Of a stretch of DNA of 64,000 nt, positions 2,874 to 62,749 are shown one piece after another. Numbering within the stretch: position 1 is the first letter of the stretch; each line of letters opens with the position of its first letter. This DNA comes from Bacillaceae bacterium (lineage in GTDB: Bacteria > Bacillota > Bacilli > JACDOE01): contig JACDOE010000004.1 in assembly GCA_017656255.1 (NCBI GenBank), positions 62,001 through 126,000 of the forward strand, given 5' to 3'. Under the pieces are notes generated by a model. The model did not search any database. It was not told where the DNA came from and was given only the letters and a program-made list of their open reading frames with translations. Both the position numbers and the translations under genes were made by a program.

Positions 2874-4016
2874 CTAGTCTTTTAAGAGATTGCGTGCGAT
2901 AACAAGTCGCTGAATTTCATTGGTTCCTTCATAGATTTGTGTGATTTTGGCGTCGCGCATAAACCTCTCGACCGGATACTCCCGGGTATAACCGTAACCC
3001 CCGAAGATCTGGACCGCTTCCGTGGTCACTTCCATCGCGGTGTCACCGGCGTACAATTTGGACATGGCGGAAGCCTGCCCGTACGGAAGTCCCTGGTCTT
3101 CCAACCAGGCTGCCTGATACGTCAACAGACGGGCGGATTCGATTTTGGTCGCCATATCCGCCAGTTTAAACTGGATCGCCTGCTGTTCGGCAATCGGTTT
3201 TCCGAATTGACGGCGTTCTTTTGCGTAATTGAGCGCATGTTCAAAGGCTCCCTGGGCGATCCCCAGTGCCTGGGCAGCAATGCCGTTTCTTCCGCCGTCC
3301 AGGGTCATCATGGCGATTTTAAATCCTTCCCCCACTTCCCCGAGAATGTTTTCTTTCGGAACCCGGCAGTCTTCAAAAATCACTTCCAGGGTCGGGGACG
3401 AACGAATACCCAGTTTCTTTTCTTTTTTCCCCATGGAAAAGCCGGACATGCCTTTCTCTACAATAAACGCAGTGATCCCTTTGTGTTTCTTTTCCGCATC
3501 GGTCTGGGCGAATACTACATAGATGTCCGCTTCACCACCGTTGGTGATAAAGATCTTGTTGCCGTTGAGGATATAATCGTCTCCGTCTTCTCTGGCTGTT
3601 GTTTTCATCGCCGCCGCATCGGATCCGGAACCCGGTTCCGTCAAGCAGTATGCACCGATTTTGCTTCCTTCCGCCAGCGGGCGCAGGTACTTCTGCTTCT
3701 GTTCCTCCGTACCGAATTTGAAAATGGGCCAGCTGGCCAGCGAAATATGGGCGGAAAGCGTGACCCCGATGGAGGAATCGACGCGAGACAGTTCTTCCAC
3801 GGCAATCACGTAACTGAGGTAATCGAAGCCGGCGCCTCCATATTCTTCCGGCCACGGAATCCCCGTCATCCCCAGTTCCGCCATTTTGTCAAAAATGCTT
3901 CGGTCAAAGCGTTCTTCCTCATCACGTTCTGCCGCAGTGGGCGCCACTTCATTCTCGGCAAAATCCCGCACCATTTTACGCATCATCTGGTGTTCTTCAG
4001 ACAGTGTGAACTTCAT
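2874..4016 (-). CDS. Acyl-CoA dehydrogenase
   Basis: A 380-residue flavoprotein that oxidises an acyl-CoA to the 2-enoyl-CoA and passes electrons to ETF. It has the family signatures: the FAD/substrate segment [13 protein letters not shown] near residue 125 and the C-terminal [18 protein letters not shown], whose Glu is the usual catalytic base in short/medium-chain members. The ATG follows GAAGGAGAGG. It is a tandem paralogue of the next gene and is packed against meaB (12 bases). Chain-length or branched-chain preference cannot be read from the sequence; the icmF/meaB neighbours favour a short branched substrate. Confidence 0.95.
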
Positions 4017-4042
4017 GTTTTTTCCTCTCCTTCTCCCTCTTT

Positions 4043-5182
4043 TTAATCCAATAGATGTCTGGCAATTACCGTGCGCTGAATTTCATTGGTCCCTTCATAA
4101 ATCTGGGTAATTTTCGCATCCCGGAACAGGCGTTCCACCGGATATTCCCGAGTATAGCCGTATCCGCCGAAGACCTGAATCGCCTCTGTGGCCACTTTCA
4201 TCGCCGTGTCGGAAGCAAGCATTTTGGCCATGGACGCTTCCTGGCCGCAGGGGATTCCCTGATCGATCAAATCCGCCGCCCGATAAACCATCAGCCGGGC
4301 CGCCTCCACCTGTGTCGCCATATCGGCCAGTTTAAAGGCGATTCCCTGCTGGGCCCCGATCGGTTTGCCGAATTGTTTGCGTTCGCGGGCATAATCCCGG
4401 GCATGTTGCAGGGCGGCTTCGGCAATTCCGAGTGCCTGGGCTCCGATGCCGATTCGTCCGACATTCAGATTGGACATGGCGATTTTGAACCCTTCGCCTT
4501 CTTCGCCGAGCAGGTTTTCTGCGGGGACCTCCGCATTGTCAAAAATCAGTTCGGCTGTATTGGAACCGTGCAGTCCCATTTTTTTCTCCTGCTTGCCGAT
4601 ACTCAATCCCGGTGTGTCTTTTTCGACAATAAAGGCGCTGATTCCTTTATGCCCTTTTGACGAATCAGTGACGGCGAAGGTGATGTAAGTATCGGCTTCC
4701 CCACCGTTGGTAATAAAGACTTTGGTGCCGTTCAGAATATAGTGATCTCCCTTTTTGGCCGCAGTGGTCCTGAGGGACCGTGAATCGGAGCCGGCACCGG
4801 GCTCGGTGAGCGCGAAGGCTCCGAGATATTCCCCGGCTGCCAGTCGCGGGAGGTACTTTTTCTGCTGCTGTTCATTTCCGAAATATAAAATGGGATTGGT
4901 GCCGACCGAGGTGTGTACAGATAGAATCACCCCGATGGTGGCACTGACCCTGGATATTTCATTGATGGCAATAATGTATGAGGTGAAGTCAGCGCCGGCA
5001 CCGCCCCATTTTTCGGGAATGGGGATTCCCATCAATCCGTAGGACGCCATTTTTTTAATAACTTCCTTCGGGAATGTTTCATTTTCCTCCATTTCCGGCA
5101 CAACCGGGGCGATTTCATTTTCAGCAAAGTCACGAACCATTTTTCTCATCATGTCCTGTTCTTCTGTCCAGCTTAGTTTCAT
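4043..5182 (-). CDS. Acyl-CoA dehydrogenase (MmgC-like)
   Basis: A 379-residue acyl-CoA dehydrogenase, clearly related to its downstream neighbour but diverged over much of its length. It shows [17 protein letters not shown] near residue 125 and [18 protein letters not shown] at the end, with the catalytic Glu retained. The start at 5182 has AAAAAAGGAGGAACC upstream. It lies between hbd and the second dehydrogenase, in the order seen for mmgABC in Bacillus. Two dehydrogenases in one operon suggest different acyl chains, for example isobutyryl- and butyryl-CoA. That is inference. Confidence 0.95.
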
Positions 5183-25416: not shown

Positions 25417-25605
25417 CCGGATGAAACCTCCCTTTTTCAAAAGTGCTTATTCTTATTCTACATCAGTCCTGATCAGCAAAGCAAAAAATAAAACGGCCCG
25501 TTCGTACCCTGATATGTAACACCTGCTCCGTGTTAATCCTGACCGGTTAAAAAAGGGGAATCCCCGCCAAACTAATAAATAAGTACAATAGAACCGGCTC
25601 GCTCA

Positions 25606-25642
25606 GGGGTGGTCGGCTCATCCCCTCGAGAAAGGGGGTGAG
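25606..25642 (+). promoter_or_regulatory. Toxin mRNA leader that hides the ribosome site
   Basis: CTCATCCCCT (25617-25626) can pair with AGGGGGTGAG (25633-25642), which contains the toxin ribosome site: 10 pairs, one G-U. The overlapping segment 25606-25621 is also complementary to 25776-25791 near the mRNA 3' end (14 Watson-Crick pairs and one wobble of 16). Both are hallmarks of type I toxin mRNAs. A possible -10 (TACAAT) is at 25584-25589. Confidence 0.6.
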
Positions 25643-25645
25643 GCC

Positions 25646-25726
25646 GTGACAGTATATGAAGCGCTGTCTCTGATGGTTGCTTTTGCCATGCTTGTGGCTT
25701 TGCTGTCACAGGATAAACAGAAATAG
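25646..25726 (+). CDS. Holin-like type I toxin peptide
   Basis: A 26-residue peptide from GTG: MTVYEALSLMVAFAMLVALL plus a short polar, Lys-ended tail. One membrane helix; it closely fits the putative holin-like toxin family (Hol_Tox), short membrane peptides that depolarise the cell and are silenced by antisense RNA. AAAGGGGGTGAGG provides a strong ribosome site, sequestered in the leader hairpin. The inverted repeat AGATCACCC / GGGTGATCT follows the stop codon. Confidence 0.75.
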   Translation: MTVYEALSLMVAFAMLVALLSQDKQK

Positions 25727-25866
25727 ATCACCCTTGAGCCAGTGTGACGGGTGATCTATTTCATGCCTGTCATGTATGAGCCGACCCCCCTGGGGGGTAC
25801 GTCTATTGTACGGGCCGCGGGTGCATCAGGCACCTGCGGTTTTTCTTATTATGTGTGTTAATCGGT
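25720..25866 (-). ncRNA. Candidate antisense antitoxin RNA
   Basis: A promoter at 25872-25900 fires through the 3' half of the toxin mRNA. The transcript would begin near 25866 and could stop at the hairpin AGATCACCC / GGGTGATCT (about 25724-25759), which is followed on this strand by a T-rich stretch. About 145 nt, complementary to the toxin tail. Ends are inferred. Confidence 0.5.
25816..25846 (+). terminator. Terminator of the toxin mRNA
   Basis: CCGCGGGTGC / GCACCTGCGG, 10 pairs with one G-U and a 5-base loop, then TTTTT. Confidence 0.8.
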
Positions 25867-59688: not shown

Positions 59689-60495
59689 TTATACTTTTTC
59701 CCTGTCTGAAGTGACGATACGATCGGGATGTGTATAGATATTCATACTCTGATTGCGGATAAATCCGACCGTTGTAATGCCAAGATCATCCGCAAGCTCT
59801 AAAGCGAGATCGGTAGGCGCTGATTTGGACAACAGAATTCCGACTCCGATTTTTGAAATTTTCAACAGGACCTCAGATGAAATCCGACCGCTGAACACGA
59901 TCAATTTGTCTCCAAGGCGGATCTTGTGTTTCAGGCAGTATCCGTAGATTTTGTCCAGGGCATTGTGTCTTCCAATATCCGTCCGGCTTATGATTATCTC
60001 CTCCGTTGTGCAGAGGGCAGCATTATGGACGCCACCTGTTTTGATGAAATCCGAGGAACGCCGGTTCAACCCGTCCATCAAGGCAAAACAATGGTCCAGT
60101 GACAATTTGAGCCGATGATTCATCACGGTTTTTGCCGTTTTAACATCATTTTGAAAGTAAAACTGTCTGCTTTTGCCACAGCATGATCCGATAAAACGTT
60201 TGGATGATGCGTCCTTTTCCAGATCAAAGTCCCGCTCTAGTTCCACATAGGCAAATCCCTGTTTGCTGACAGAAAGGGATTGAATCTCATCAGCAAGACG
60301 GATAATTCCTTCTGAGGCCAAAAACCCAATCACAAGGTCTTCCATGTGTTCGGGCGTGCAGACCATGGTCGCAAATTCCTGACCATTTATAACAATGGTA
60401 AGTGGAGATTCAACGGCGATCAGGTCATCTTGCCGGTTGAGACTACCCGCTTCATATTTTAAAATCTGTCGCTGGGACTTCACCCTTTTATCCAT
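59689..60495 (-). CDS. fdhD: Formate dehydrogenase accessory sulfurtransferase FdhD
   Basis: A 268-residue FdhD, which sulfurates the Mo/W-bis-MGD cofactor so that formate dehydrogenase becomes active. Markers: ESPLTIVINGQEF, CTPEHMEDLVIGFLASEGII, GSCCGKSRQFYF (the cysteine loop, here with adjacent Cys) and VFSGRISSEVLLK. GGTGAGGGGAG precedes the ATG. No formate dehydrogenase gene is in the window; it must be elsewhere. Expression appears to be controlled by the RNA element at 60637-60716. Confidence 0.93.
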   Translation of the reverse strand: MDKRVKSQRQILKYEAGSLNRQDDLIAVESPLTIVINGQEFATMVCTPEHMEDLVIGFLASEGIIRLADEIQSLSVSKQGFAYVELERDFDLEKDASSKRFIGSCCGKSRQFYFQNDVKTAKTVMNHRLKLSLDHCFALMDGLNRRSSDFIKTGGVHNAALCTTEEIIISRTDIGRHNALDKIYGYCLKHKIRLGDKLIVFSGRISSEVLLKISKIGVGILLSKSAPTDLALELADDLGITTVGFIRNQSMNIYTHPDRIVTSDREKV

Positions 60496-60636: not shown

Positions 60637-60716
60637 AACCGCCGTGATCGGATCTTAAATTTTAGAGGTCCGACACGGCGGTTAGCCTTCGGCAGGGCCG
60701 CTGCCAAGTACCAACC
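60637..60716 (-). ncRNA. Candidate cis-regulatory RNA, copy A (before fdhD)
   Basis: A 37-nt hairpin (60680-60716) has outer arms GGUUGGU / GCUAACC (two G-U), a 2x2 internal loop AC/AG, inner arms UUGGCAG / CUGCCGA and loop CGGCC. Its final AACC is also the start of a terminator: AACCGCCGTG / CACGGCGGTT (60637-60683) followed by T8. The two folds exclude each other in part. It begins 22 bases after the DUF2294 stop and lies 141 bases before fdhD. Copy B at 62489-62585 has the same length and nearly the same sequence. Confidence 0.75.
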
Positions 60717-60738
60717 TGATCGTCTATCGTGCTGTTAT

Positions 60739-61098
60739 TCAAGATTTGAACTTCTTTTCAATATCACGATCAAATACAAAAATGGACATGCCAAAGTCTT
60801 TATCAATATCAATGTCGACAAACAATTCTACAAAGTTGGCTCCCAGAAATTCTTCCATTTCCACCGGGCGGTTCTTGCGGTAGATTTCTTTCACCATCTC
60901 TGTTCGGGCAGCACGAAGCATCTGTTTTCCTTCGTCAGCGGTCGCAATAAATTTTTCCACAGGTGACAGGTTTCCTTCCATTTCACAGATCGCCCAGTTC
61001 TTACAGAAAGTCGTTTTGATTTCCCTGGGTCCTTTGCCCATATGACGCTTCCTGAAGGATCGTACCAGATTGCTGAATTCCGCTTCATACTTGTTCAT
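60739..61098 (-). CDS. DUF2294 protein
   Basis: A 119-residue soluble protein matching DUF2294: MGKGPREIKTTFCKNWAICEMEGNLSPVEKFIA and a C-terminal VDIDIDKDFGMSIFVF. The family often sits beside formate dehydrogenase genes in Bacillota; biochemical role unknown. AAAAGGG before the ATG. It is the first gene of a transcript that continues through RNA copy A to fdhD. Confidence 0.78.
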   Translation of the reverse strand: MNKYEAEFSNLVRSFRKRHMGKGPREIKTTFCKNWAICEMEGNLSPVEKFIATADEGKQMLRAARTEMVKEIYRKNRPVEMEEFLGANFVELFVDIDIDKDFGMSIFVFDRDIEKKFKS

Positions 61099-61138
61099 AT
61101 GGTCTCAACCCTTTTAATTTTCCATCTTCTGATGATAG

Positions 61139-61167
61139 ATTTTATCACCAGTGGTTTGTATTTTCAA
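61139..61167 (-). promoter_or_regulatory. Promoter of DUF2294-fdhD
   Basis: On the minus strand TTGAAA, 17-base spacer, TAAAAT, about 40 bases before the DUF2294 start. Confidence 0.65.
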
Positions 61168-61181
61168 TTTTTTTAAAAAAT

Positions 61182-62447
61182 TTAACTTGCCAGATTAACA
61201 GTGGACTCTTTTAAATCTGCCTGCAGTTTTTTGATATCTGCCCGGATCCAGATGGAAACGATCAACGCCACCAGGAATAACCCGGCAAATATGTAAAGGG
61301 TTCCGATATAACTTTCCGTCGTCGTCCGTACCCAGGACGCAATGGACGGACCTGCCAGACCGGCTGCAGCCCAGGCCGTCAGGATGTACCCATGAATAGC
61401 ACCCAGTTGTTTTGTTCCAAACAAGTCGCCGATGTAGGCTGGAATGGAAGCGAATCCTCCGCCATAACAGGTCAGGATCAAAAATAGCAGAATTTGGAAC
61501 AACAAAGCATTTGTTGATTGCGGTAGTAACAGAAATGCGATGATCTGGATGGCAAAAAAAGCGGTGTATGTGTTAGGGCGTCCGATATAATCCGACAGCG
61601 AGGCCCACCCGATACGTCCCAGACCGTTGAAGAGTCCCAGCAGTCCGACCATGGTTGCAGCTGCAATACTGGACATACCGGCAATTTCCTGTGCCATTGG
61701 AGATGCTACGGATAATACGGCAATACCGCAGGTCACATTAATAAACAACATTAACCACAGGAAATAAAAACGACGAGTTTTGACCGCTTCGTTAGCCGTC
61801 AACTGGGACAGGTCGGCCTTTATTTTCTTCTTGCCGGACTCAACCTGTTCTTTAAACCCTGCCGGCATCCATCCCTCCGGTGGCGGTGCAAGATATTGAG
61901 ATGAAGCAAACATAATAACAAAATAAGCTAACCCCAGGATGAAAAAGGTACTTGCTATGCCAACCGAATCAATTAACCGGGCCATAATCGGACTGCTGAT
62001 CAGCGAGGCGAATCCAAATCCCATGATGGCCAGTCCGGTAGCCAGCCCTCTTCGATCCGGAAACCATTTGACCAGTGTGGAAACCGGCGCAATATAGCCC
62101 ACCCCGAGTCCGATTCCACCCAGTACGCCATAGAACAGGTATAACAAGATGAGTGATTCGGATTGAACAGCCAATCCAGAACCTGCAATCCCCACACCGA
62201 AAAAGACGGCGGCCAGGGTTCCCGATTTCCTGGGACCATGTTTTTCGACAAAATGACCCAGAAAGGCTGCGGCCAGACCCAGAAACAGTATGGCCAGGCT
62301 AAACGTAAACGTCACCTGTTGCAATTCCCAATTCATCTGGTTCATTAAAGGTTTGGTAAACACACTCCAGGCATAAACGGATCCGATGGAAATGTGGATC
62401 CCCACTGCAGAAAGCGCAATAAGCCAGCGGTTTTTGATGTTTTCCAT
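61182..62447 (-). CDS. OFA-family MFS transporter (oxalate/formate type)
   Basis: A 421-residue major-facilitator protein with twelve helices. OFA/OxlT marks: IGSVYAWSVFTKPLM in helix 1, VEKHGPRKSG in loop 2-3, and FPDRRGLATGLAIMGFGFASL. ATG 62447 follows AAGGAGGACG; frames further upstream lie in the RNA leader. Members exchange oxalate and formate or related carboxylates. The shared RNA element with fdhD supports formate as the substrate. Confidence 0.88.
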   Translation of the reverse strand: MENIKNRWLIALSAVGIHISIGSVYAWSVFTKPLMNQMNWELQQVTFTFSLAILFLGLAAAFLGHFVEKHGPRKSGTLAAVFFGVGIAGSGLAVQSESLILLYLFYGVLGGIGLGVGYIAPVSTLVKWFPDRRGLATGLAIMGFGFASLISSPIMARLIDSVGIASTFFILGLAYFVIMFASSQYLAPPPEGWMPAGFKEQVESGKKKIKADLSQLTANEAVKTRRFYFLWLMLFINVTCGIAVLSVASPMAQEIAGMSSIAAATMVGLLGLFNGLGRIGWASLSDYIGRPNTYTAFFAIQIIAFLLLPQSTNALLFQILLFLILTCYGGGFASIPAYIGDLFGTKQLGAIHGYILTAWAAAGLAGPSIASWVRTTTESYIGTLYIFAGLFLVALIVSIWIRADIKKLQADLKESTVNLAS

Positions 62448-62480
62448 GATACGTCCTCCTTCTACAAAATTTTTTGTGAC

Positions 62481-62585
62481 AAAACAAAAACCGCCAACAT
62501 TCAACTTTCTCAAAGGACAAAAAAATCCTCTTAAAGTTGAAAATTGGCGGTTAGCCTTTGGCAGGGTCGCTGCCAAGTACCAACC
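62481..62585 (-). ncRNA. Candidate cis-regulatory RNA, copy B (before the OFA transporter)
   Basis: The 37-nt hairpin (62549-62585) is almost identical to copy A; loop CGACC versus CGGCC and inner arm CUGCCAA versus CUGCCGA, the latter keeping pairing with UUGGCAG. Its AACC again opens a terminator: AACCGCCAA / TTGGCGGTT (62489-62552) with an inner TTCAACTTT / AAAGTTGAA stem and a T-rich tail. The terminator loop and lower stem differ completely from copy A, so only the hairpin and AACCGCC are conserved. Spacing to the start codon is about 40 bases after the T-tract. Confidence 0.78.
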
Positions 62586-62749
62586 CGACCTTTTTTTGGG
62601 GCAGGACATGTTTAACCGGTGACAGGTAGCCGCTGTCCCGTGTCAAACATTAATTGTGTCATTTTTGTGAAAATTTAATATATATCGTAACATGAAACTC
62701 CTACTTTTTCAATAGGATTAATATTATTCATAAGATAGATTCTGATCTA

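Follow-up and report, generated by a model that had tools for sequence, protein, structure and literature searches.

Why would a bacterium keep two nearly identical 37-nt hairpins in front of two different genes, and what would respond to them? The question is raised by the window, by which we mean the whole 64,000-nt stretch of Bacillaceae DNA analysed here, on whose minus strand one such hairpin lies in the leader of a transporter gene (62549-62585) and the other in the leader of fdhD (60680-60716). The initial annotation had picked out this pair, and the two copies indeed differ at only 2 of their 37 positions (19 and 27). Allowing for up to three mismatches, a search returned these 2 matches in the window and 0 in 100 dinucleotide shuffles; within the 3.4-Mb genome there are exactly two close copies, both in the window, while a diverged third site (G000:C9:24374-24413) was recovered with covariance models. 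The hairpin in the transporter leader, hereafter H2, reads GGUUGGU[A]CUUGGCAG-CGACC-CUGCC[A]AAGGCUAACC and scores 69.6 bits with covariance model R1 and 58.6 bits with R2; its counterpart in the fdhD leader scores 66.7 and 55.1 bits. The folding energies of the two are -17.7 and -18.0 kcal/mol (z -2.6 and -3.2).

Each hairpin runs into an intrinsic terminator that opens with the hairpin's own AACC, as had been claimed. In the transporter leader this terminator (62489-62552, minus strand) has the 5' arm AACCGCC, which takes in the final four bases of the hairpin; in the fdhD leader it spans 60637-60683 on the same strand, as AACCGCCGTG...CACGGCGGTT followed by a T-run reaching 60628. Both are of the form AACCGCC...GGCGGTT with subsequent T-runs, and it was rightly noted before that their bodies are unrelated in sequence, as AACCGCC alone is common to both and the remainder is wholly different. 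Taken as units, hairpin plus terminator fold more strongly still (z -4.4 and -6.9 compared to shuffles). The earlier list of features was right about the pair of hairpins, but passed over both mpsC and a tandem hairpin H1, located 5' of H2 in the transporter leader (62610-62648, minus strand; R2 17.4 bits). H1, with the sequence GUUUGAC[A]CGGGACAG-CGGCUAC-CUGUC[A]CCGGUUAAAC, is separated from H2 by 24 nt and has the same shape, its stems being swapped by compensation (e.g. CGG/CCG for CUU/AAG). A promoter-like TTGAAA-17-TACGAT upstream of H1 (62684-62712, minus strand) is a consensus match alone and is no commoner than in shuffles.

Three minus-strand genes make up the surroundings. The first, at 61182-62447, encodes a monocarboxylate (SfMCT / OFA-like) MFS transporter. 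It scores 468.7 bits (cut-off 320) with SfMCT, the NCBIfam model for L-lactate MFS transporters, and does not pass the NCBIfam oxalate/formate models, so that its substrate is uncertain, which corrects the OFA label given to it initially. Next comes mpsC (60739-61098; PF10057, DUF2294, YrhF family), which has one attenuator on each side and is our candidate for an RNA-binding antiterminator. The third gene, fdhD (59689-60495), encodes the formate dehydrogenase accessory sulfurtransferase (PF02634 E 4.9e-81; TIGR00129 above cut-off). Elsewhere in the same genome, on another contig and in a region spanning G000:C9:19000-26400 (L079), a diverged tandem hairpin pair lies 5' of a gene for the alpha subunit of formate dehydrogenase (3057-5147 of that region, minus strand). 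This gene has an in-frame UGA at the position of the active-site selenocysteine (NNIDSCNRT-UGA-HAPSV), and its product is therefore probably a selenoprotein.

Is the hairpin a peculiarity of this genome? Among 151 relatives searched by pattern, two genomes from another family carry this element in the gap between mpsC and moaA-fdh; their sequences, together with the two window copies, made up the four from which model R1 was built. At E up to 0.05, R1 has matches in 48 of the 399 genomes sampled from the class. Every class-wide match of at least about 25 bits adjoins mpsC, a formate dehydrogenase gene, fdhD or the transporter, while the weaker tail is partly chance; L070, L072 and L075-L078, among other low-scoring matches, were counted as chance. 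Among named genomes, the exact pattern occurs at 71 loci in Bacillus, Cytobacillus, Mesobacillus, Neobacillus, Paenibacillus, Brevibacillus and relatives, 70 of them directly 5' of a formate dehydrogenase gene of the FdhF/YdeP family and mostly just 3' of mpsC. Searches for copies 5' of formate genes, of the kind proposed as a check at the outset, find them in many Bacillota, and the element thereby passes a refuting condition set there, the lack of further copies. In a phylum-wide sample of 398 genomes, true matches were confined to the window's own class, the Bacilli. Two matches, one in Collinsella (L096) and one in G653 at the end of an alanine racemase gene, were put down to chance.

The initial annotation had matched the element to no known class, and the comparison with Rfam 15, which had been set beforehand as the test to refute this, bore it out: at gathering thresholds the element in the window remained unmatched, and at E up to 1 nothing relevant was found at four related loci. 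The same scan of the window gave a strong match to BsrG (RF01412, 124.8 bits) at 25584-25838 on the plus strand. BsrG is known from Bacillus as a type I toxin-antitoxin RNA. A scan for viral contigs was negative. The hairpin represents a conserved RNA family that is not in Rfam 15 and was found only in the Bacilli, and very probably it serves formate-linked genes as a regulatory RNA. Tandem arrangements occur as well, with an upstream hairpin recognised by one regular expression in 37 of the 127 leaders examined, the others apparently having a single hairpin.

A 2x2 internal loop had been proposed for the hairpin, and we compared it with a model of two offset one-base bulges, in which stems 1-7/31-37, 9-11/28-30 and 12-16/22-26 leave single bases at 8 and 27. 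Over 44 distinct sequences, the two-bulge model has 84.6% of its cells paired, and 36 cells show changes on both sides, compared to 14.3 expected from shuffles, with such changes at 9 of its 15 pairs; the 2x2 model gives 82.2% and 30 double-change cells. Within a larger set of 96 distinct hairpins, tandem ones included, pair 9-30 holds in 94 sequences and pair 10-29 in 95, the latter as U-A, G-C, C-G, A-U or G-U, while pair 11-28 holds in 84 and pair 11-27 in only 49. As such, covariation within the aligned sequences favours two bulges over the internal loop. RNAalifold, run on alignment A3, recovered the apical stem alone, probably because a few rows of A3 are misaligned in the lower stem. 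By eye, some Brevibacillus variants have the CUGA/UGAUGA look of a K-turn, an idea that was dropped because the inner stem runs on where a K-turn would have its three-base loop.

The two-bulge structure, supported by 44-96 distinct relatives, alters the reading of one of the two differences between the window copies. An A-to-G change opposite U had been taken to preserve a pair, whereas position 27 stays unpaired as a bulge and varies freely (A 48, G 23, T 13, C 12), which means that the difference is not compensatory. An invariant G-C pair closes the apical loop, a pentaloop of the form C-G-N-N-C. It should be noted that the set of 96 was selected by the apical anchor AG[CTA]G..CCT, so that its anchor bases are bound to be invariant; the alignment made without an anchor likewise shows A15, G16, G18, C22, U23 and G24 as invariant. 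Conserved unpaired positions are few, namely G18, C21, mostly C17, and the bulged purine at 8.

This last point bears on whether the hairpin itself could be the sensor, as in a very small riboswitch whose ligand (formate, a related carboxylate, molybdate/tungstate or a pterin cofactor) would switch the terminator. The targets do have formate and Mo/W-cofactor biochemistry in common (formate dehydrogenase, fdhD, moaA), and many leaders have tandem copies. However, so few conserved unpaired positions leave little for a selective aptamer, and a lactate-type transporter is an odd target for a Mo sensor. The element resembles the Mo-cofactor riboswitch and other Rfam riboswitches in being a leader RNA 5' of genes for Mo-enzymes and their cofactor, but differs from them in being far smaller, with few conserved unpaired bases, and in having no counterpart in Rfam 15. 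In the two window leaders, with the upstream hairpin omitted, about 1 kcal/mol separates the full-hairpin fold from the full-terminator fold. The balance could therefore be tipped by a modest binding energy, and such near-equality supports switching, though it does not prove it; it would suit a riboswitch, too. We nonetheless regard direct ligand sensing as improbable, and as less likely than antitermination by MpsC.

Close contact between hairpin and terminator is the rule. Of 113 distinct leaders, 112 have a stem that leads into a T-run directly beside the hairpin. The 5' arm of the terminator begins at hairpin position 34 in 77 leaders, and in about 90 of the 112 terminator-bearing leaders the terminator shares at least the last bases of the hairpin. 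In some 20 others, mostly from Paenibacillus, it starts at 37-38 and abuts the hairpin without shared bases, which indicates that pure sequence competition is not universal. Leaders L085, L097, L099, L104, L105, L110, L113 and L134 are Paenibacillus examples of this abutting arrangement. One might argue that nothing is regulated here, and that a constitutive terminator or an mRNA-stability hairpin merely reduces expression of the downstream gene within an operon, as many copies are intergenic inside one operon, in the gap between mpsC and fdh. Against this stand the preservation of loop and bulge positions across families of the Bacilli, the presence of the tandem form in the 5' leader of the transporter as well, and the persistence of the hairpin-terminator arrangement while terminator bodies diverge. 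The earlier suggestion that selection acts on the hairpin is supported, and we consider an absence of regulation very improbable.

A protein-bound antiterminator in the manner of LicT and its RAT site had also been suggested initially. Of the alternatives offered there this is the nearest, although the LicT family itself does not fit. The RAT of BglG/SacY/LicT is, like the present element, a short hairpin with asymmetric unpaired bases that overlaps the 5' arm of a terminator. The E. coli bgl operon has bglG flanked by two attenuators, just as the candidate regulator gene mpsC lies between attenuators. Unlike RAT, however, the hairpin found here has a different sequence and bulge pattern, and its targets are formate and monocarboxylate genes instead of sugar PTS genes. 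Furthermore, 9 of 32 motif-bearing genomes have no CAT_RBD domain (PF03123), and the window's own genome, 98.9% complete, is one of the nine, so that LicT/SacY/BglG proteins cannot be the general partner and were rejected.

ANTAR regulators were rejected on similar grounds. The domain (PF03861) is absent from 10 of 20 motif-bearing genomes, among them again that of the window, and 2 more score below cut-off; ANTAR proteins thus cannot be the general partner either. Targets of ANTAR proteins (NasR/AmiR/EutV) are dual hairpins with short stems and hexanucleotide loops that carry A1 and G4 (PMC3369931). Where hairpins stand in tandem, they resemble these in their conserved loop bases and in the second hairpin lying against the terminator. 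In contrast, the present element is made of about 15 base pairs interrupted by two bulges, its loop has the five bases CGNNC, so that the ANTAR loop rule does not apply, and its tandem form is apparently optional. With the defining protein missing in many carriers and a loop unlike that of ANTAR targets, the element belongs to neither the RAT nor the ANTAR group.

So which protein would be present wherever the hairpin is? The PF10057/DUF2294 family is found in 224 of the 399 sampled genomes of the class, and in all motif-bearing genomes of that sample. A close mpsC (at least 73% identity) is present in 46 of the 399, and 33 of these 46 have an R1 match; from the other 13, six were examined and all six carry the motif (G120, G153, G185, G213, G249 and G312). 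Motif-bearing genomes G022, G040 and G130 have a more diverged mpsC nearby, and the motif is absent from 30 of 30 loci of distant mpsC subfamilies. The co-occurrence of close mpsC and hairpin is almost strict. Attenuators on both sides of mpsC are seen in many relatives as well as in the window. Some Cytobacillus loci (L098, L111, L133 and L147) have the order transporter-hairpin-fdh without mpsC, and in these genomes a close mpsC adjoins fdhD elsewhere.

Does the hairpin change along with mpsC? A second type of hairpin, type II, is found between genes for 2Fe-2S formate dehydrogenases and the mpsC genes 5' of them, which are 43-59% identical to that of the window (among loci L221-L275, e.g. 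L229, L233, L245 and L249). It reads GGAUUGG...AGUAC-N-GUGCU...CUACUCC or CUAUUCC, is adjoined by an intrinsic terminator, and shows modest covariation over 13 sequences. Further types, each recognised by eye from few sequences, occur beside other mpsC clades: type III (L237, L238), type IV (L242, L243) and type V (L250, L263, L270, L273, L277). Placed on the mpsC tree, the hairpin types require 8 changes, compared to 33 with shuffled labels, and type I, that of the window, forms one clade (99/99). This match is partly due to vertical descent of the genomes. However, one genome (G146) has two mpsC paralogues, one with a type II and one with a type V-like hairpin, and neither genome descent nor a shared ligand would explain that pairing. 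The comparison shows that hairpin and mpsC co-diversify. Since a shared ligand would leave these differences between clades and between paralogues of one genome unexplained, they weigh further against direct sensing; with few conserved unpaired bases, a hairpin that may be single or tandem, and types that track mpsC paralogues, the formate, Mo-cofactor or metal riboswitch that was initially proposed finds no support.

We must however take into account that the linkage of mpsC to formate dehydrogenase genes could, on its own, mean just that MpsC serves formate dehydrogenase. The same attenuator may then be bound by another RNA-binding protein, with MpsC as an accessory or maturation protein of formate dehydrogenase within the regulon. 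MpsC is tied to formate dehydrogenase, FdhD and the transporter with or without an adjacent leader, some mpsC genes lying directly 5' of fdhD with no leader in between. The AlphaFold model of MpsC (pLDDT 93) yields weak fold matches (TRAPPC3 at E 1.7e-3, H-NOX), with no convincing RNA-binding fold among them. Literature searches on DUF2294/YrhF, and on antitermination in connection with formate dehydrogenase, gave nothing bearing on function. MpsC of Staphylococcus aureus belongs to the same family (PF10057); its gene carries no functional assignment, deletion of it gives no growth defect, and mpsC is not collocated with mpsAB outside staphylococci (PMC6689103). What another binder does not readily account for is that the type of hairpin shifts with the mpsC clade and that paralogues in one genome differ at the same position, and two well-known hairpin-binding antiterminator domains are missing in many motif-bearing genomes. 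We therefore hold this alternative to be possible, though rather unlikely.

Our preferred explanation, held with moderate confidence, is transcription antitermination under the control of a protein, most likely the product of mpsC. The 37-nt hairpin would form during synthesis of the leader, its final bases doubling as the first bases of the terminator. An RNA-binding protein clamping the hairpin would then keep the terminator from fully closing, allowing RNA polymerase to read on into the transporter-mpsC pair or into the formate dehydrogenase genes (fdh, fdhD, moaA-fdh). The clamping protein would most likely be MpsC, encoded between two attenuators. The RNA family and its structure, the terminators and the bases they share with the hairpin, the gene context and the linkage to mpsC are shown here. 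That MpsC binds RNA, that the bound state is the on state, and that the signal is formate-related, are what we infer from these patterns.

More generally, there is in our view about an even chance that MpsC/DUF2294 is an unrecognised family of RNA-binding antiterminators, in which each clade has its own hairpin (types I to V), controlling formate dehydrogenase and monocarboxylate transport in the Bacilli. If so, DUF2294 would gain a concrete role as an RNA-binding regulator, and a family of hairpin-binding antiterminators would be added to those of BglG/SacY and ANTAR. Moreover, if the pairing of clade and hairpin type is real, it would provide natural orthogonal RNA-protein pairs, both for studies on the evolution of specificity and for engineering. 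The finding adds a conserved family of leader RNAs that would control formate dehydrogenase in Brevibacillus, Paenibacillus and many Bacillaceae.
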